A stretch of 64,000 nucleotides of DNA. Origin: Lineus longissimus (lineage: Eukaryota; Nemertea; Pilidiophora; Heteronemertea; Lineidae). This document shows, in pieces, positions 9,301-61,521 of this stretch. Below the pieces are notes generated by a model, which searched no databases, was not told the origin of the DNA, and saw nothing but the letters and a program-made list of their open reading frames with translations. Both the position numbers and the translations under genes were made by a program. Position 1 is the first letter of the stretch; the number at the start of each line of letters is the position of its first letter. The stretch covers positions 496,001 through 560,000 of the forward strand of contig NC_088317.1 of assembly GCF_910592395.1 (NCBI RefSeq). Direction: 5' to 3'.

Positions 9301-12300
9301 GTTGTGAGGCCCTGACTAGGTTGGTCAAGTATGTAGCGCTTTTACAAACACTCATCATGACGTCGCTTCGCCCTCGGTCTGCTATGGTATGATGTGTGCC
9401 AGTGTTGTCTCGAGTAAAATGGCTTAATAACCATGCTAACTGTCTTGAGGTTTGTGTATTATCAAAAAAATGAAGGTACATGTGACTGTGTCGTGTGGCT
9501 ATTGACTGGTGTGAAGAAAGCTGAGCTATGTGTGTTGACTGTTTTCTCGGTCTGTTGCTGTGGTATTTAATTGACTCATCGTTAGGAGCAGCAGTAAACC
9601 TATTGTTGTCTGAGATCACAATGATTTTAGTATCGGTTCATCAAGTAAACATTTTTAGAGATCAAATACAATGTTAGATGTCCATACCGTGCTCAAGAAG
9701 AATACATTGCTATGTTGTTCCAGATCTGATATTATTTCCTTGCTTGATGATGGTACTACAACTGTTTAGTATGATACTTTCAGAAACATCAGTGGCCCAC
9801 AGCGCCACATAGAAAACGTCAATGCGAATGTGAATAAACCCTGTGCAAACCACAGTTCTGCTGTCTACTATGATGATAGGGAGGACTCGGTCTTCAAGTA
9901 AGTTCTCTCTGACTGTCACACACACGATATCAATCCAACTCTCGATCATAGTTTCTTAAGTTTAGTTCTTTTTCCGTGATGGTAAACATTTGTATAGTCT
10001 AGCACTCCTGGTGAATCGTAATAGTGTCTCCTCTGGCATATCTGGCCTTCTCATTCTTCAGGAAGCCTCTCTCTCTCTCCTGAAACAAAGAATTCCTCAA
10101 GGGCTTGGTAAGAGTTCTCTCAAGACTGGCCACGAGATATTCGGGTGTAGTCACCTCAATGGTAGTTGCCCGACAAACTGTTCTTGTTCTTAGCTGATAC
10201 GTACAATCAGCTCTCAGTGACCAAAAAAATCACGATAGACTTTGTAAGATATCGTCTCTTTGTCAGGTACATGGAAGAGGGTCGACATAACCAGTATAAT
10301 TACGCTGCCCACGATGAAGACGATGAGATTCGTAGTGAATATCGCAAACCTCGGGATTCTTTGCTCAACATCACCGCCGAGTTCTTTGCTACTTGTCTTC
10401 CAAGGCTGAAGGAACTACGAAAGATGCTCGCTGACCCATCGTTCAAGTTTCCTGAACTGCTGGACTATAAGGCACACATTGTAAGTAACAATTAAAGGTT
10501 GTGGTGTGGGCGCTCAGTTCTAACGAAGGGGAAGACTTGTTGTCATCCTTCGAACGCCTGATGAGTTCAGAGAGGGGACCATGTGTGGAGAAGAAGGTAA
10601 AATGGCTGGGTTGCCAGTCATACGCTGGTAACGCATCTGATGATATCTTTCTTTTTTTCCAGCGCCTTGCTGATATTGCTCACACACTGTTGAAGATCGC
10701 GCCATATGATCCTCTCGTCATGGGTAGCAGAGGGTTACAGAGGTAAGATGCACGTCCTCGGCTAATACCCTCCTATTGTCCTGGCTCGATGATTCTGATG
10801 ATTACCCTGCATGCTTTATCTGATCTTTTGTTGCAGGTACATCACGGAAATATTGCCAATCACAGATTGGTCCATAGAGGCAGTACGGCCAGCCCTTAAC
10901 CTCATTCTCCGCCGACTTGACAGACTTTTCAATAAGATCTACAAGAAAACCTCACTCAGGGTAAGTGAATGTACCAAAAACTACGATCCCTAGAAATCTA
11001 ATGTTGAATTCTAATAGTCTATTCGTACTTTTCAGAGTTGAATGAAATTCCATTTGAATATCTAATCACTTTTAAGCAATTGGCATATTGCTGGATTATT
11101 GTTTTCAATACTAAACTGAAACATTTCTTTAATCGCAGAGACATCTCAACTGGGACTGTGCCGCCAATCTGCTGAAGGGCGTCTATCTGACCCTCACCAA
11201 GTACCAGTACATTGCTCATTTGCCCCACCTCAAGGTAGGAAACTTGGACTTAACAATCTTGCACTAAAATCAGTGGTTATCTCCTACTCAATTTGATATA
11301 AGAACACCGACCTTGGGCATAACATTGAAAAGGAGGTTACGATGTCTTGGTGACTTCATCCTCGAAGTCACTCAGATAGCACTGATTTTTACGGACTGAG
11401 TGTCCCTGCCTACCATTATGACAAAAACCAGAAACTCCTTTATTTACTTGGTGCTTTATCATTGCAGACTGTGATCAACATGTGTTTGAACATCATCCTG
11501 TCTGACGTTGGTTCCTCTAGCATCTACGACAGTCTCCACAATGTTCACTATGGCAACCGGAATGAGCAGGTCAACAATCACCTTGCAGCGCCACCTAGAT
11601 TCTGTTCAGCTGTTGTCAAGCTCATGGCCACTCAGATGCAGTGTCTTGGAGTAAGTTCCTAGAGAAGACAAACAAGTGATAAGCCAGGTGCTCTTATGTC
11701 CTCGTGACACCTGTTTGCCTCAAGCCTTGTTCCTCCGCTTGAAAACAAGAACATGAACATTTTCGGCTATTACGTACTGTAAGTTTTTCACTTAGTGCTA
11801 TGCAATATCTTTTCACACCAAGATGCTGTAACTATCTTTATCCTCTTGTCTAGGAGCAGTTTTCTGTGGAGCACATCTGTGGCGGCATGTCTGTCTTCCC
11901 AAGTCCTGAGAAGACCCAGAACATGCTGGTCAATCTGATCCTGCCACTGTGTATCAGGGTGGGATGTGGCAGAAGAGGTGAGCTGCCATGTTTTGGTTGA
12001 TATTTGAAACCATACGCATTTAAGGAACTTTGCTGTAGAATCACGTATACATTTGCATTTTGAAATTTGAAGCCCTAATCACGCTTGCACAGAGTTGCCA
12101 ATCGAGAGGGCTTCAGGTACGAATCTGGGCTTGCACAGAGTTAATACTCGAGAGGGCTGCAGGTACGAATCTGGGCTTGCACAGAGTTACTACTCGAGAG
12201 GGCTTCAGGTACGAATCGATGTGCTCTAAGCTTTATCTATGCTCTTGTATCTACCTCATCAATATTGTTATTGTTGAAATTTCAGATGCCCCCAAAGTGC

Positions 12301-29604: not shown

Positions 29605-32600
29605 ATGTTTCGTTTTGTAATTAGCCGGCAAACGACCCGATGCATTTCTCGGTTGATGAGAAAATGCCCCGAGGTCAATTCAAATACTCTCGCGGTGATG
29701 CCACACTATTTTAGCTCAGTATCTGCTCAAAATCGGCACAAACTCCCAGGCACTTTTCATGAGGTTCAATTTCAAGGACAACAAGGTCAGTTTTTACTGT
29801 ACATTGTGTACACTGCTACATGTATGATGTACATCACAGATGTCAAAGTTGTTTATGTCTTGATATTTTGTCTGATTTTGGGAGTTAATTTATGTCATGG
29901 CACACTCCAGTCGCGTGTGGAATAAGCAAGATGAATATATTATTTCCAAATAATACCCTTGTTTGTAGCTGTATTATTAGTGGACCGTATTTGTAAACCT
30001 ACCTACCTACCTACCTATCCCGTCCTCAAATCCTGATAAATTCACATATTGATGGTTTTCTTTTCAGTGCGAACATATTCTAGCAGCTACACTGATCTTT
30101 CATACGAACAGTTCCTCTCGCTGCTGGAGAGCAAAGATATTCAGTTATTCGATGTGCGGGAGCCTGAGGAGTGTCGGACGACTGGCGTCATACCATCTGC
30201 TGTCAATATCCCGTGTGAGTAGTCGTCATCTGGTTGTATCATTGACCACTATTGAAACGCCAGTTTTACAATGGTATATTGATCAAAGTTCATTTCTTAG
30301 TCATGTCCTCCAACATTTGACTACTATGTCAAGTAACTTGTAGGCAAGTTGCGGGCAGCTGATTGCACTTCGTTTAAATTTGAAACAATTTCAGGTTCAG
30401 TCAGCAATGGTCGAGCGTTCTATTGCACATATACCCTACTAGCCCTCAAGTATTGTTGAGTTGTGTTTTGTCAGAGTCTATATCTATTGCACATGTTCCC
30501 AACCAGCCTTCAACAAGTATTGTTGAGTTGAGTCTAGATTTGGATACAAGTACCATAGTCTTGTCACAGCAGATCACACACCTTTTGGCATTCCCACACG
30601 TGACACTTCACAGTGGTGTTTTCAAAGTTGTCGATTTCACCTTTTTTTTACTACCATCTATTTGGCCTTTGGTACTTTGGCAAGTAGTTTGAAAACAAAG
30701 CAAATTGCATACTCAATTCTATAATTCCAAAATTGGCAAAATCAATGTTGCCTGCTAAACAGATAAACTCATTGGTGTGTCCTTCGGTTTGATTGTCAGG
30801 TTTTATCTGTGGAATGTGTCAGTCATGTCATAATCTGACAATCAATCGATTTATTCTCTTTCCAATTCCAGTGGGCGAGGTGAAAAAGGCATTCTCAATG
30901 AGCGAAAGCGAGTTCGTACAAAAATATAGGGTCAATATGCCATCAAAAATGGATCGCAATGTTGTCTTTTATGGGCTTGGCCCAATTAAGAGCACAGCTG
31001 CATTAGAGCTTGTTCACAAAGTGGGATATAAAAAGTAAGTGCCTTTTGGTCTTTGTGGCTTCCTGGTTTTAGTTCGTGCTTGAGTCTTAGAGTTAGGTCA
31101 AGTGGGTCATGCGATGGTTGGTTGTGACTTACAAGGAGGGCACTGGATGATACCATTGCTTGCAACTTGGCCCATTGAGTGGTCATGGTCCAGTGTCTCA
31201 GTCTAGGATTGTTTGTGCTCATGATCCCATTGTTATTTGGAGCTGCACGTAAGTTTCCTCCAGCCGGGTACTAACACCATGCAATACTAGGTACAAATTC
31301 CTGGACCAAACTTTTCAGTTGCAACTGAGGCAATTATGCATGCTGTCGTAATGGCTTTATTAAGGCTTCAATCATCGCATCTCTGTACCGGCAACTACCA
31401 GCATGATACTTGTACTCCTTCCTCCTACTCTAGCCGGCACTATCCTACAAACGTCCTGACGTCACTTCTCACTGATTCTGGCAGTTCAACCCTCAGTTTC
31501 GAAATATCTTGTATCCCACTGTATGTTTATCTGATCCTGTGTGAGCCTCACCTTCAAACTTTGGTGTATGTCTTTGCTTCTCCTCTCTATCTGTACATTG
31601 GCCTATTCCCCATCTGACTCTAAACACTGCGCAAACATAATACTAACAGTCCAAGATGGGTAACAAGTGTCAATACTCAAGGCAGTTGGGTAATGTGCAA
31701 TAAGACGATTATCATAATCTATATATAGGGCTTCATCAGCGGCGATATAGTGATCTCTTGTAAATTGAACAATTATACACATTATGTTCCTTCAGTGGGT
31801 ACCGTACCAGAGGCGTTTCAAAAACCGCCCGAGGAATTTAGAGAATCGTATGGAGTGGAAAAGCCAGGAAAAGATGATGCCAATATTGTCTTCAGTTGTT
31901 TAGGTGGGGTGCGGAGTCGGAGAGCCCTCAATGCAGTTACAGAGCTTGGATTTAAAAAGTACATTGATATCTTTTGTTTATGCTTTGTTATTTTGAAATT
32001 GGTTGAATGGATGTCCTGGTACTTATGGGATGTTTTGCCGAGGCAAGGAGGGACATTGGCAACTCCTGTCAAGGCCATTGAGTGATTACAGGACTTGGAT
32101 TTACAAAGTAAAATTTGTCGTCAGTCTAACCAAGCCTGCTACCCTACAAACAGCTCCTGTCTTGCCAGTCTAACCAAGCCTGCTACCCTACAAACAGCTC
32201 CTGTCTTGCCAGTCTAACCACGCCTGCTACCCTACAAACAGCTCCTGTCTTGCCAGTCTAACCAAGCCTGCTATCTTACAAACAGCTCCTGTCTTGCCAG
32301 TCTAACCACGCCTGCTACCCTACAAACAGCTCCTGTCTTGCAAGTCTAACCAAGCCTGCTACCCTACACACAGCTCCTGTCTTGCAAGTCTAACCAAGCC
32401 TGCTACCCTACAAACAGCTCCTGTCTTGCCAGTCTAACCAAGCCTGCTACCCTACAAACAGCTCCTGTCTTGCCAGTCTAACCACGCCTGCTACCCTACA
32501 AACAGCTCCTGTCTTGCCAGTCTAACCAAGCCTGCTACCCTACACACAGCTCCTGTCTTGCAAGTCTAACCAAGCTTGCTACCCTACAAACAGCTCCTGT

Positions 32601-33281
32601 CTTGCCAGTCTAACCAAGCCTGCTACCCTACAAACAGCTCCTGTCTTGCCAGTCTAACCAAGCCTGCTACCCTACAAACAGCTCCTGTCTTGCCAGTCTA
32701 ACCATGCCTGCTACCTTACAAACAGCTCCTGTCTTGCAAGTCTAACCAAGCCTGCTACCCTACACACAGCTCCTGTCTTGCCAGTCTAACCACGCCTGCT
32801 ACCCTACAAACAGCTCCTGTCTTGCCAGTCTAACCAAGCCTGCTACCTTACAAACAGCTCCTGTCTTGCCAGTCTAACCACGCCTGCTACCCTACAAACA
32901 GCTCCTGTCTTGCAAGTCTAACCAAGCCTGCTACCTTACAAACAGCTCCTGTCTTGCCAGTCTAACCAAGCCTGCTACCTTACAAACAGCTCCTGTCTTG
33001 CAAGTCTAACCAAGCCTGCTACCTTACAAATAGCTCCTGTCTTACAAGTCTAACCGAGCCTGCTCCCTGCTACATTATTAACAAAGTTCCTTTGTTTTTG
33101 GAGAAGATATGAATTGGTAGTGTATGAATTGGTATATGTACACTGTAATTACTTTTTAAAACTGTCACAATTTCAATTTATTATCTAAGAATGATTACGA
33201 CTATATCTTGTTTGTTTCAGTGCACGTCATTACATTGGAGGTTGGGAGGAATGGCAGATGAGGCAGAAATCACAACACTAG
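29605..33281 (+). CDS. TSTD3: Mitochondrial single-domain rhodanese, TSTD3 type
   Basis: Rhodanese-like sulfurtransferase. Exons: 29605-29785, 30068-30214, then one of two alternatives (30872-31034 or 31796-31958), then 33221-33281 (TAG); 183 aa either way. Residues 1-20 hold five Arg or Lys and no acid, then Ser and Thr, as in a mitochondrial presequence. The domain starts at YTDLSYEQFLSLLES, has the CH2A-like LFDVREPEE, and ends with ARHYIGGWEEW, the usual rhodanese C-terminal tail. The second alternative exon gives the active loop SCLGGVRS (CxxGxR), which closely resembles vertebrate TSTD3. All junction phases agree (1, 1, 2). Splicing both middle exons in series shifts the frame and meets a stop, so they must be used one at a time. 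Confidence 0.9.
30872..31034 (+). other. TSTD3: TSTD3 alternative exon 3a, catalytic cysteine lost
   Basis: 163 nt, phases 1 in and 2 out, acceptor TCTTTCCAATTCCAG, strong GTAAGT donor. It encodes LGEVKKAFSMSESEF through VVFYGLGPIKSTAAL. Aligned with exon 3b, the loop CLGGVR becomes GLGPIK, so the nucleophile Cys is Gly and the Arg is Lys. About 40 percent of residues match 3b, including the hydrophobic core, and there is no stop or shift. It therefore looks like a maintained pseudoenzyme version, not a dead copy. Confidence 0.85.
31796..31958 (+). other. TSTD3: TSTD3 alternative exon 3b, active site intact
   Basis: 163 nt, same phases and the same length as 3a. Acceptor ATGTTCCTTCAG; donor GTACAT, weaker than that of 3a. 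It encodes LGTVPEAFQKPPEEF, then NIVFSCLGGVRSRRAL with the catalytic Cys and Arg. The weak donor may make its inclusion regulated (inference). Confidence 0.9.
32123..33070 (+). repeat. 44-bp minisatellite, 21 copies plus a part
   Basis: The unit starts AGTCTAACCAAGCCTGCTAC and ends CAGCTCCTGTCTTGCC (or TTGCA). The first AGTCTAACC is at 32123 and the last at 33047, exactly 21 x 44 bp, so there are no indels. Copies differ at a few fixed sites (C/A before AGTC, AAG/ACG/ATG/GAG, CCC/CCT, AAA/ACA). It lies in the last intron of TSTD3, about 165 bp after exon 3b and 150 bp before the last exon. Confidence 0.97.
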
Positions 33282-34697: not shown

Positions 34698-37385
34698 ATG
34701 GCAGCAGGTAATGCAGAAATTTGGAGCTCAGCTAAATTATATGTACATGAAGTACCATGTACATTTTGTGTACACCTTCATCAAAAGAGCTGAATCGGCA
34801 AGTTGAGGAGAGAAGGAAGTTTCACATTATCCGTGTTTATCTCACATTTGCTATTCTGATGGCTTCATCTTCCACACAAGCTTCTATAGATCAAGCCCAT
34901 GAAAGTAAGGAGGTTGATACAGGCACTGCTGGAAGAGGAGTCTGGCTGGTAAAAGTAAGAAATTCAACAGACATTTCATTTTCCTCTTTTTAATAATTTT
35001 TAATTGTAAGTTGTTGCACTTTTTGCCTCAAATCCCTGTCTGTGGTTGTGTATGTGTGACTGACTGTCACTGTGTGTGTTGGTATTCATGATTGATAGGC
35101 CTACCATGCATGTATAGGGCCCACAAGTTATGAAAGAGAAACTGAGAATTAGGAAAATACTATGCCTAGTACTGGTACCTACTTAATGAAATCAGTGAAG
35201 GATTTGTGGAAGCTGCTTTTTCAAGGCAAGTGTGGTGAGCCCTCCTGGTGATGCATTTCAATTCAAATCCTTGTTGAAATAGTTTTGAATTCTGGCCCTA
35301 GAGAAGATTCAAAGTGTTGACTGTGTCAGAGCTAACTTTACCAGGTGGGTGGGACCGTAAAGAGGGTCTACATTGACCGCTTTGATTAAATACGATGTAA
35401 GAGCGGAAACCAGATTGCGACAACATTTTGTTTAACCTCTTCATGAACCTGAACTATTGGCCAACATTTTTCAGGTGCCCAAGTATCTGGCTGAGTCCTG
35501 GCAAAGGACAGATGGGAAATGTGAAGTGGGCAAACTACGCATTGCAAAACCCAAGTAAGTAACTCACGAAGCATCAGTGAGTAAAGATGGGGTAAATACC
35601 AGGAAGAAGTTTAGTATTCAATGGGACACCACCTCATTGAAAAGTATGGGCAAACTTTTCCTTAGGGAGGCCACAATGACCTTGCTCTCATTGTGTATTA
35701 CTGATTACAGATTCCAAGGAGGTAAACCCGAGGTTGTGTTCACGATCGATGATAAACTCCTAGAGAAGGAGAAAGATTCATCCGGTGACGTGCTGCCCAC
35801 CGTACCAAAGGACCACAAGTTTGTCCTGACAGGGATCGCCGACCAGAATCTAGCCATCTTGGGACAGGATGCAGATAGTAGGTTTAATCACTAAGACGGG
35901 GAGGGGGACTCTTAAAACTATCGACCGTTAAGGAGGCTTGTCCAACTTGTTCTAAGTGAAGCTCATACAGGTTCAGGTCTTGTGAAGAAATTAGTTTATA
36001 AAACCAGCGAAGTTGAAGAACATTTTTAAAGTTGACTGTCTACTTGAATGGAAAGTGCTTGTCCCTTTGTAGAGCAGCCTAGGTTACATCATATTCCTTT
36101 TGATGTTCATGGGAGCCATGATTCTGGCAGTCGAGTGGACCTGATTACTTCATTGTTTTGTTGTGAATGTGAGTTTTCATTTGTCATTTCAGATCGTGTC
36201 AGTATTGCTGGGAAAGTTATACAGCGGGCAGAATGTCGACCGATCGTCGATTCAAATTATATGAAACTAAAAAAGTAAGTACCATTTAGGGTGGAACATG
36301 TTATTGAGTTCCCTATCTGTGCATAAGTCATATTGAGATTACCAGTTTGACTCCCTAACTCCTGCCTATAGTCCCCCTTTAAGTCAGTTGACTTTGAATG
36401 TTACCATTTAGGGTAGAACATGTTATTGAGTTCCCTATCTGTGCATAAGTCATATTGAGATTACCAGTTTGACTCCCTAACTCCTGCCTATAGTCCCCCT
36501 TTAAGTCAGTTGACTTTGAATGTTACATGATGTGAATGTCTAAATTGTTGCTTTCAGGTCTCACATTGATATAGCAAACCGTCCTGTCAACGAAGTCATC
36601 AAGCTTGACCAAGTACAAGTGAAATATAAACCAGTCATGGATCACCAGTTTAATGTTAGTATGACAATGGTATTAAGTTGTATCAAGTGGAGATTATACT
36701 TGATTATATTGGAACACTGGTATTCTTTGTTATAATAGCCTGAATACGGTCTGTAGTGATTCTTTGTTTACAGACCATTTATGTTTGGCAGACCTTGTAG
36801 TACATTGAACTGTACAGACCCACCCAGTGACTCTGGCTTTGGCCAAAATTATATGGAATCCAAAGAAGGCCTCTTGGATAAAGGAAAATTTAGTTACTAA
36901 GGTATCCGTTTCATTTCAGATTGAGCATCGTAAAAAGAAGAAGGACGAGGGCAAGCGATCGCGAGCTGAGAAAGATCAGGTCATGGAAATGTTGTTCTCT
37001 GCATTCGAGAAACATCAGTACTATAACCTGAAGGATTTGGTGACAATAACAAAACAACCTGTGGTAGGTTTTCAATTCACTGATTTCCCCTCCTTCCCCT
37101 ATCGGAGAGTAGAGGCCTGTATTACACACTGTTTCTGTAGAAATCACTTTGAACCTCACTCTGGCTGTCACTTCTATGGTATTTCATTATAATTCGCATT
37201 CATCAAGAGTCGGTGTTAAGAGGACAAAGTCATAGCCACAAGGTTTAATTAAAAGTTGCTGCTTTCTGTTTCAGACGTATCTGAAGGAAATCCTCAAAGA
37301 GTTCTGTACGTACAACACAAAGGCACCACACAAGAACATGTGGGAGTTGAAGCCTGAATACAGACATTATAAGGAGGACAAATGA
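34698..37385 (+). CDS. GTF2F2: Transcription factor IIF small subunit (RAP30)
   Basis: RAP30 pairs with RAP74 (GTF2F1) and brings RNA polymerase II to the preinitiation complex in the nucleus. Preferred exons: 34698-34707, 34890-34954, 35475-35554, 35711-35877, 36193-36274, 36558-36654, 36920-37063, 37275-37385 (TGA), 251 aa against 249 in human. The N-terminal dimerisation barrel starts GVWLVKVPKYL, with VGKLRIAKPK and QRAECRPIVDSNYMKLKK. A linker with the VKYKPVMDHQFN motif follows, then the winged-helix domain with FSAFEKHQYYNLKDLV, TKQPVVG replaced by the spliced TKQPV-TYLKEIL, and WELKPEYRHY. All junctions are in phase. Alternative start: ATG at 34859 in an extended exon ending 34954 (258 aa); I prefer the short first exon because the DNA before 34890 looks like a pyrimidine-rich intron end. 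Confidence 0.95.
36281..36524 (+). repeat. 122-bp direct duplication in GTF2F2 intron
   Basis: Two nearly identical copies (36281-36402 and 36403-36524) beginning ACCATTTAGGGT. Copy 1 starts immediately after the GTAAGT donor of exon 36193-36274. Confidence 0.95.
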
Positions 37386-56527: not shown

Positions 56528-57000
56528 ACTATTATTATTATTATTAATTATTACTAAAACATATTTTTAGGTGCCTTTATCAACAAATTGCTCAAAGGCA
56601 CCTTACAATCTAAGAAACAATGTGCTCAAAGTACTAAAATACAGCAATAAAACAATAAAACAATTTAGGACCACATGATTAAAAACGGATTTAAAAATAG
56701 GCTAATTTAAAAAGATAGGTTTTCAATGCCTTCTTGAAGATGCCAAGGTCAGCTGTCGATCGGATGGACAGAGGAAGTTCATTCCACAGCCTTGGGGCCG
56801 AAGCCCCAAAAGATCTCCCTCCACAGACCGTCCTATGGCGGGGGACCTTGATACTCCCCCGCAGAGCGGAGTGCTCTGCCAGGCCTGCGGAAGGAAACCA
56901 ACTCCGAGATGTAAGGAGGGGCTGTGGAATGAAGGGCTCGACGTGGTACTCATGTACCCTTAAGTGATACATCGGAGACAAGCGTTCGCTCTGATCTGAT
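56528..57000 (-). mobile_element. 5'-truncated LINE (CR1/L2-like) 3' end
   Basis: The minus-strand frame 56981-56691 encodes the well-known ORF2 tail of CR1/L2-type retrotransposons: RSFGASAPRLWNELPLSIRS, then LGIFKKALKTYLFK. The 3' UTR follows with the GTAAGGTGCCTTTGAGC type motif and ends in an ATT-repeat tail at about 56530-56550. Only the last 100 codons of the reverse transcriptase ORF remain. Confidence 0.85.
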
Positions 57001-58961: not shown

Positions 58962-59472
58962 CCTTTTCTCGAAAGAACAGGCGAGCTGCTCGTCCTCTGT
59001 AGGTTATTGGTGACCAGTCGAGGGGAGAGTGATGTCAGTTCAGAGAAACGACCGGTTCAGCACTGATGACCTTAGTTGGGTTTCCATTCCAGGTGGCCGG
59101 GCCGGCGCGACGAAAATTTCCGAAAATGCGGACGTTCTTGGGGGTTTATTTCAGCAAAGTTGATTCCACGGATTGGTCACGCTGACAAACAAAATGGCGC
59201 AATCGGATGTGTGTTTCTCTTCGAAGGGCATTTTCAATGGACGCCACGTCAGAATAGTTTAGTTATTGGAGTTGGGCGATGCTGCACCCATCAGATAACG
59301 GAAGGATACACCATGATGGTAGAGGCGACTGTTCCAACTGTTTGTTCTGCTTTAAAATTATGACGGTGATTGTGGGATGAAAAATGTGTAATGAATGAAA
59401 CTTCGGCATCTTCCCAAAACGGCAAAAATGAATTCCATTTTTTATGAATAACAAATATAGCCGGGCACTTAC

Positions 59473-61521
59473 TTGTCGTCGTTGTTGTCGTTGTTATTGT
59501 CGTAGTTGGAATTATTGTGGTGGTGGTTGTTGTCGTCGGCAAGGACTTCGCCAGCTTCTTGCAAATCACATTGGCGACAGGGGGCGCTTTCATTGTCATT
59601 TGAGGAAACTTGTCAACAATGAAAGAATGGCTTTTCGTCGGCTTAGAAGCGATTTGAGCAATCTGTGCTCTCGCACGGCGCGGAGCCTGAGCTGCGACGC
59701 AGAATATCTCTATCCCGGCAGCTTTGCAACGAGCTGCTTCTTGCAGTGTTCTGGTCATACTGTTAGGACTTCCGTCAGATATTAGGATGCCAATCTTGGG
59801 AACACCAGCCCTTGCACCATTCCTCCCTGTAAATCCACTGAAAACAATAGGCACATAAATTACAGAAAGCTGATGTCGAGGATAACGGTACCATTTCAAA
59901 AACGTGGTATCCGCCAAGATCCGCCTGACTACAACCGCGGGTCGCTGCCATATTGTATGGCCCCCCGGAAGGACGATTGCCCACAGACACTGGCTTCTCC
60001 CTTCGCTTGCTCTTGTAAAAGAAGACTTTCGACAGAAGTTGTAGAAGTCTTTTTGATTTTGAGCTTCAGAACGGAAATGTCTATAGTATAGAAAACACGT
60101 ACACGGTTCTCATGTTATTGAGGACTGAAGAGGTAGCAGTGCCACCGCTGATGTAAGGGATGTATCGCACAGCCTGCCTCAGTGCCGCCTTGTTGTAGTA
60201 ACGGTTCAGAGGGATGTGAAGCTGAACGCGGGAACTAAACCTGAAGAGAAAAAAAACTTTGGAGCTAATCCCAAACATTTCTTGCGAAGACCATTAAAGG
60301 GAGGCTGAAGACAGGATCGATGGGCCAAATTAAATCACACGAAGTTCTATTACGTTCCCTATTCTATATCTCAATACATTATTTACGCATGAGCCACTTG
60401 CTATTGCATGTGGATGTACATCTGTCACCCTACCACAAACGGGACACAAATCATTCCTTCAAGTAAGCATACAATTACCTTATTAATCCGACGCGGACCC
60501 GATGCATACCGATTGCCAGATTGTTGATGAGGGAGTTGACAAACCGAAGGAGATGCACATAGTTGTAGGTTCCCACACTCCCCGAGGAGTCCACCAGGAA
60601 GTAGATGTCGGCCTTGGTACGGTTGTCACAGGCTACGAAATCAAAGGACATGGAGACATTGGGGCGGTGGTCACACATTTAGTAATTAAGGAGCATGGAG
60701 ACTGGGTACGGAGGTTACACTCTCAGCAATCAAGGAGCATGGTAACTGGGTACGGGGTATACACTTAGAAGTCAAGGAGTATTCGATTACAGTCGTGCTC
60801 TCATAAGTGTTATACTTACCGCTTTTCGTGGCTGGTCCAATGGTCGGTGGTGTTGGAGGTGGTGTACACTTGTACTTAATTTCGATGTATTTGCTAACAC
60901 CCTTACAAGGTTCACCAAAGAGTGCTGTTGTTGCGGACAACCTGCAGGTCGTCTTAGCGTTGCACAACCGTTTTACCGTTGCAGTCGCTTTAACAGTCTC
61001 CCTACAGCCGGTTTTTCGGTAATTACCAGTACGACAGGTCCAAAGAGACATTCTTCCCCACATGGCGCTGACGATCTGCATCGTACCACCTCCATAACAC
61101 ATGATACCCAGGCGATAACGGGAGTTTTCGCAGGACCTGGTGGTACGTACACGTTGAGCTGAAATAAGAACATCAAAACATTGTTGTCCTAACTGTTTTG
61201 GTAGCTGGTCCGATGATCGGGGTGTTGGCGGCGGTTTACACTTTACACCCACACATGGGTCACCAAAGACGGCAGTACTGTTGTTGGTTTAAAGCTGCTG
61301 ATGTCATGAGCGATGGGCCGCCATTTTAACTGTAAAATGGCTCAAAGGTTTACTGCAGGTGCGTGACCCTGCATTGCCTCGGTGTACATCGTATGAGTAC
61401 GGCTGTTTACACTTGAAATTTATCACTTACCTTCGACTTGACATAAGCTAACCCCCAGTAGAAGAACAGCTAACAATAAAGGCACCTTTCCTGACATATC
61501 CAGCCTTTGGTCCATTTTCAT
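59473..61521 (-). CDS. Secreted SUEL-lectin / von Willebrand A domain protein (3' end missing)
   Basis: Exons on the minus strand: 61521-61431, 61158-60820, 60632-60479, 60240-60103, 59837-59473; phases 1, 1, 2, 2 fit. Exon 1 is a signal peptide (core VPLLLAVLLLGVSL, end CQVEG). Exon 2 is a galactose/rhamnose-binding SUEL domain with eight cysteines, MQIVSAMWGR for the usual YGR region, and ALFGEPCKGVSKYIEIKYKC. Exons 3-5 form a vWA domain with a complete MIDAS: DSSGS, the GGTAT threonine, and ISDGSP. A Thr-rich linker (TTTTTTTIIPTTTITTTTTT) follows, likely O-glycosylated. The last exon leaves phase 1 at a GTAAGT donor, so more protein follows that I could not find. Predicted role: extracellular carbohydrate and matrix binding, such as innate immunity or egg/mucus coat (inference). 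Confidence 0.85.
61192..61290 (-). pseudogene. Fossil copy of the SUEL exon end inside intron 1
   Basis: Reading minus, NNSTAVFGDPCVGVKCKPPP and then a stretch close to CCGACCATTGGACCAGCCAC match the 3' half of the real lectin exon. The segment for SKYIEIKY is deleted, the frame has shifted near the end, and the donor GT has become TT. A TAA lies just upstream. It keeps the canonical DPC motif where the active exon has EPC. Confidence 0.75.

Follow-up and report, generated by a model that had tools for sequence, protein, structure and literature searches.

Two homologous active-site exons, one without the catalytic cysteine, in a rhodanese gene of Lineus longissimus: a probable case of mutually exclusive splicing

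Inactive forms and exchanged exons in described systems

Rhodanese domains are characterised by a CxxGxR motif and are divided into active and inactive ones by the catalytic cysteine, the inactive domains being considered mediators of interaction (PMC10135228, in its available portion). The N-terminal domain of MPST, for example, has the rhodanese fold without the catalytic cysteine, and the inactive domains listed in the available text of the same source reside in two-domain or fused proteins (PMC10135228). Alternative splicing has been described there as a further route to forms without activity. Human TSTD1, a gene of four exons, yields splice forms that were inactive under the conditions reported; in the account given in the available sections, these forms lack exon 2, or lack exon 4 while keeping intron 3, and do not make use of a second homologous active-site exon (PMC10135228).

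In other enzymes, neighbouring homologous exons are known to replace each other, as in KHK, PKM and ACOX1. A human survey of 236 mutually exclusive tandem exon events, as far as its available sections extend, found that such events are mostly ancient and that 80.6% of the predicted binding residues within the exchanged region are retained (PMC9741552). The same sections describe the catalytic arginine of KHK and five flavin-binding residues of ACOX1 as being kept in both exons, and name three genes, ACTN1, ACTN4 and ACAN, in which one of the two exons is devoid of most or all of these residues, the lost sites being calcium sites (PMC9741552). An inactive isoform of DNMT3B that is devoid of part of the catalytic domain has also been reported, and the available part of that report does not describe an exon swap (PMC11135424).

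Here we describe a gene within a 64-kb window (the whole stretch of DNA that was analysed; 42% GC, recognisably eukaryotic from the division of its genes by introns) that has four exon positions, as human TSTD1 has four exons, and whose third exon exists in two homologous versions, 3a and 3b, which would give rise to forms A and B, respectively. Form B resembles human TSTD1 (6bev) in that its DxR motif and its CxxGxR loop occupy corresponding positions, form A resembles the N-terminal domain of MPST in having no catalytic cysteine, and the gene differs from TSTD1 by an added leader-like N-terminus. In contrast to the inactive domains listed in the available text of PMC10135228, form A would be a splice alternative within a single-domain protein. 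Splicing that turns activity off has a precedent in this enzyme class in TSTD1, as far as that source describes it, albeit one of different anatomy, and tandem duplicated, mutually exclusive exons are, as such, a known kind of arrangement. Measured against the residue retention seen in the human-only survey, in its available sections (PMC9741552), it is unusual for an exon swap to take away the catalytic nucleophile together with its loop. By title and start of the abstract, and within the open-licence PMC literature only, we found no report of a swapped active-site rhodanese exon.

Layout of the gene and of the two versions of its third exon

All internal exon borders of the gene read AG/GT, and exons 3a and 3b are in the same phase (Table 1). 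Splicing of either copy between exons 2 and 4 (1-2-3a-4 or 1-2-3b-4) yields an open protein of 183 residues in each case. Joining the two copies (1-2-3a-3b-4) shifts the frame and runs into a TAG 15 codons on, the junction codon counted, which lies within 3b, before the last junction; skipping both (1-2-4) likewise shifts the frame and leads to an early stop. The frame itself thus enforces the presence of a single copy, so that a productive message carries one exon 3. Mutually exclusive tandem exons are adjacent, homologous, equal in phase and similar in length, and the frame is lost when both are included or both are skipped; the pair described here has each of these properties. The initial annotation of this locus had given the borders of both exons, their 163-nt lengths, common phase and open frames, as well as the loops CLGGVR and GLGPIK, and had predicted that a join of 3a to 3b would meet a TAG after about 15 codons, and our analysis agrees with it in all of these respects. 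Our conclusions on exons 3a and 3b are drawn from one sequence, that of this locus.

Table 1. Positions of the rhodanese gene and of features within it, numbered from the first nucleotide of the window
Feature	Position	Strand	Description
Rhodanese gene	29605-33281	+	Four exon positions, exon 3 in two versions
Exon 1, coding part	29605..29785	+	Start codon, basic N-terminus; donor GTCAGT
Exon 2	30068..30214	+	First half of rhodanese domain with DxR motif (DVR); common to both forms
Candidate stem arm, intron 2	30416..30455	+	Would loop out 3a; weak statistics
Second (direct) repeat copy, intron 2	~30482-30532	+	Copy of the candidate stem arm
Exon 3a	30872..31034	+	163 nt; second half of rhodanese fold, non-catalytic loop; donor GTAAGT
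Loop GLGPIK in exon 3a	30973..30990	+	C to G, G to P and R to K relative to 3b
Candidate stem arm, intron 3	31671..31708	+	Would pair with the intron 2 arm
Exon 3b	31796..31958	+	163 nt; counterpart of 3a in the fold, with the catalytic loop; donor GTACAT, weak
Loop CLGGVR in exon 3b	31897..31914	+	Fits the CxxGxR rhodanese motif
Exon 4, coding part	33221..33281	+	Includes stop codon; common to both forms

The acceptors of the two copies had been annotated as good. This holds for both, but an amendment is needed with regard to the donors, which are unequal: when scored with a consensus matrix, the donor of 3a reaches 9.6 bits, the highest value among the four donors of the gene, as opposed to 2.9 bits for that of 3b. 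If the 3b donor is left unused, the frame continues for 41 codons into intron 4 (31959-32082) before it stops, and the extension, which includes the hydrophobic stretch YIDIFCLCFVILKLVEWMSWYLW, may represent a retained-intron form; read-through at the 3a donor meets an immediate in-frame TAA. At the other end of the protein, six of the first 20 residues encoded by exon 1 are R or K and none is D or E, and this basic N-terminus looks like a mitochondrial leader.

The surroundings of the gene contain several other features. The intron that separates 3b from exon 4 is largely taken up by a 44-bp minisatellite (32122-33068; 21.5 copies, 95% match). Two ORFs on the plus strand (2388-2747 and 10166-10492) have Pfam matches to the C-terminal region of UNC80 and indicate a UNC80-like gene upstream of the rhodanese gene. 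On the downstream side, a plus-strand ORF (36809-37189) encodes an HTH domain of the TFIIF beta subunit, which makes it probable that the neighbouring gene is GTF2F2-like; judged by eye only, the ATG at 34859 may be its start. On the minus strand, two ORFs within 59294-61288 have a von Willebrand A domain and a SUEL-type lectin domain and perhaps belong to one gene, and the end of another ORF (56694-56999) resembles the C-terminal part of a reverse transcriptase from a non-LTR retrotransposon.

Both splice forms cover positions 2-101 of the 102 positions of the Pfam rhodanese profile (PF00581) and score 59.5 bits (form A) and 66.3 bits (form B) against a cut-off of 22.2. In the PDB, the top match for either form is human TSTD1 (2e-15 for form A, 1e-18 for form B), followed by yeast RDL2 (6k6r), with YOR285W (3d1p) ranking third for form B and fourth for form A; TSTD3, the type to which the initial annotation had assigned the gene, is absent among the PDB matches of both forms. 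RDL2, which is named mitochondrial in the PDB, and YOR285W have the same domain as the gene described here, and RDL2 possesses the loop Cys, Gly and Arg, unlike form A. We know of no splice alternative for either yeast gene. The eukaryotic relatives that entered the comparison were taken from the PDB, TSTD1 and RDL2 among them, and two scans of viral contigs returned no relative of the gene.

The two forms part ways at the catalytic loop, where form B has the CxxGxR signature and form A does not; indeed, there is no cysteine anywhere in exon 3a. That the loop of 3a has lost the Cys and the Arg had been recognised at the outset, but the loss goes further and includes the Gly, which is replaced by Pro. 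Compared with 3b, the three replaced codons (Cys, Gly, Arg) differ by 2, 3 and 2 bases, so that single read errors cannot account for the loop of 3a. We aligned form B with the best 80 of 370 confirmed bacterial and archaeal relatives and with the TSTD1 and RDL2 segments. The loop C, G and R are kept in 82, 81 and 82 of these 82 relatives, and the D and R of the DxR motif, which reads DVR in the shared exon 2, in 82 of 82, counts that overstate conservation because the rows were picked by similarity to the catalytic form.

Origin and maintenance of exon 3a

Exons 3a and 3b encode identical residues at 22 of 53 codon-aligned positions (23 of 54 if one adds the residue formed where exon 2 is joined), close to the 40 percent estimated previously, and they are identical at 80 of 163 nucleotides without differing in length. 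Conceivably, 3a might be nothing but an open stretch of intron that resembles 3b by chance. Stop-free stretches are frequent enough for this to be considered, as any given frame is free of stops in 7.4% of all 159-nt stretches on the plus strand of the window, and in 9-13% of those in the two introns flanking 3a; the open frame of 3a alone thus means little. The case for 3a is carried instead by homology, saturation and preserved length. When the exon peptides are compared with the window by tblastn, 3a and 3b find each other at 1.4e-10, and the exon-3 segment of human TSTD1 matches 3a at 7e-4; none of 20000 residue shuffles reached the 22 identities, the best attaining 11. Chance similarity of 3a to 3b is excluded in practice by tblastn and shuffles, and the probability that we would assign to it is vanishingly small. 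Identity amounts to 43, 60 and 40% at codon positions 1, 2 and 3 (composition expectation 26-29%), and 13 of the 22 residues that are identical between the copies are encoded by different codons.

How far did the duplication extend? Tandem gene copies are common, and 3a could be what remains of a whole-gene copy that has lost its exons 1, 2 and 4, or it could be part of a second gene. However, no duplicates of exons 1, 2 and 4 were found in the 64 kb by tblastn (E up to 10), the best other matches being chance-like (1.9, 0.66 and 0.45, respectively), and 3a sits inside the gene with phases that match on both sides, which makes a remnant of this sort very unlikely. A third copy of exon 3 was not detected in the 64 kb by tblastn either, the best other match of 3b being chance-like (E 0.088). 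With no further copies turning up, the duplication appears, within the bounds of the window, to have been confined to exon 3.

Has exon 3a been maintained since then? Between 3a and 3b, synonymous differences are close to saturated, with a pS of 0.745 as opposed to a pN of 0.46; dN/dS is 0.71/3.8 (NG86), 0.75/1.5 (LWL85) or 0.63/18 (ML), with dS being unreliable at such a distance. We simulated neutral drift in 4000 runs, starting from 3b, taken as the ancestor, and proceeding to the nucleotide identity observed between 3a and 3b. A stop was gained in 3708 of the 4000 runs; none matched the profile score of 3a (89.4, compared with 85.3 for the best simulated sequence and 114.6 for 3b), and none reached its 23 of 54 identities (best 19). 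On the basis of this simulation (0 of 4000), we reject the notion that 3a has been decaying neutrally ever since the duplication.

Since the selection tests compare only 3a with 3b, they leave room for a short and recent neutral period. Exon 3a might accordingly be a former alternative exon that has recently fallen into disuse, a fossil that is open by luck in a gene that now makes the 3b enzyme only. Its active-site residues are gone, and, when drift is run forward from 3a, the exon stays intact in 29% (with indels, at 0.1 per change) to 56% (without) of simulations at 0.05 changes per site, in 9-35% at 0.1 and in 1-14% at 0.2, so that 0.05-0.1 neutral changes per site would leave it intact in 9-56% of cases. 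Such disuse is at odds with the top-scoring donor, the good acceptor and the unchanged length of 3a, and also with the placement of its substitutions. At the 11 exon-3 columns that are invariant in 3b, TSTD1 and RDL2, 3a keeps seven of the eight non-catalytic residues and none of the three catalytic ones (one-sided p 0.024, for a split picked after the alignment was seen). TSTD1 is matched by 3b alone at eight sites and by 3a alone at four; without the three catalytic columns the numbers are 5 and 4, and 3a appears to be about as near to human TSTD1 as 3b is. Of 13 mostly hydrophobic columns, Cys being counted as hydrophobic, each copy keeps 12, the Cys column being missed by 3a and column 83 by 3b. 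By these column and TSTD1 comparisons, 3a seems unlike a copy that generally decays faster, its losses being concentrated, on small counts, in the catalytic loop, and we regard recent disuse as unlikely.

Alternatively, 3a might serve mainly to control the amount of product, with many transcripts including both copies, shifting frame and being destroyed, and with the 3a protein mattering little. The TAG that such transcripts reach upstream of the last junction would suit this role, as would the donor score, by which 3a is the stronger exon. A poison exon, however, needs no conserved rhodanese frame, whereas 3a is conserved well beyond neutral simulation, and 3a spliced to exon 4 produces a full in-frame domain; we therefore give this explanation little credence. 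On the evidence of the sequence, we consider it likely that an ancient tandem exon duplication, in combination with mutually exclusive splicing, allows one gene to produce an active and a Cys-less rhodanese. The initial annotation had spoken of an enzyme and a pseudoenzyme from one locus; the part of this that frame logic, homology and selection tests support is the existence of two maintained, interchangeable exons, one of which has no cysteine.

How might the two forms be chosen and used?

We envision a eukaryotic gene for a single-domain rhodanese of the TSTD1/RDL2 type. An old tandem duplication would have given this gene a further copy of the exon that encodes the latter half of the domain. 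Form B, with its CxxGxR loop, is predicted to transfer sulfur, and form A would retain the N-terminus, the DxR motif and the fold residues while having lost the nucleophilic cysteine and the rest of the loop signature. One copy of exon 3 would be taken per transcript. Given its stronger donor (GTAAGT versus GTACAT), 3a is a possible default exon, and 3b, the catalytic one, may be the regulated exon that depends on assistance, possibly by an intronic stem in which 3a is looped out. Transcripts that include both copies, and thereby have a premature stop ahead of a junction, would presumably be targets of nonsense-mediated decay.

A candidate for such a stem is formed by the arms in introns 2 and 3 (Table 1), and it lies near chance. 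The inverted repeat has an alignment score of 21, which was reached by 10 of 500 paired shuffles, and it is one of three inverted intron pairs that were aligned, another pair scoring 19; the duplex energy was reached by 5 of 60 shuffles. The two repeat copies in intron 2, when considered singly, were equalled in 0 and 5 of 1000 shuffles, having been picked after the match was seen. A pairing between intron 3 (around 31165) and intron 4 (around 32039), which would loop out 3b, has an energy reached by 3 of 80 shuffles and no alignment support (score 12), and the energy of an intron 2/intron 4 duplex was reached by 19 of 60; the intron 4 minisatellite was omitted from the duplex-energy tests. 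Together, the intron 2/3 and intron 3/4 pairings would resemble the competing-structure splicing schemes set out in the available part of PMC6071210. An RBFOX-type TGCATG at 31337, between 3a and 3b, carries no weight, because the strand contains 38 such words. A scan of the window with Rfam at gathering thresholds and a tRNA scan returned nothing.

What might a rhodanese without its cysteine be good for? The common basic N-terminus suggests that both forms would be found in the same compartment, probably mitochondria. There, form A might occupy the same partners, or the same persulfide or anion ligands, without turnover, and the splice ratio would then set the catalytic share of the pool. A more specific scenario, which we put forward as tentative and somewhat doubtful, is that of a long-conserved switch that exchanges only the catalytic-loop half of a mitochondrial rhodanese and by which cells would adjust how much enzyme they make relative to its Cys-less twin of intact fold. 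This twin, with its Gly-rich, Lys-bearing loop, would act as a sensor or brake by binding the same partner or a sulfur or anion ligand, and competing stems would choose between 3a and 3b.

What is exchanged in this gene is the catalytic loop itself, and in one copy the three residues of the signature are all replaced while those of the fold are kept. If transcripts confirm the use of both exons, the gene would represent a compact natural pair of enzyme and pseudoenzyme, derived from one locus and identical in the rest of the protein, and it would provide a ready-made control for the role of inactive rhodanese domains.
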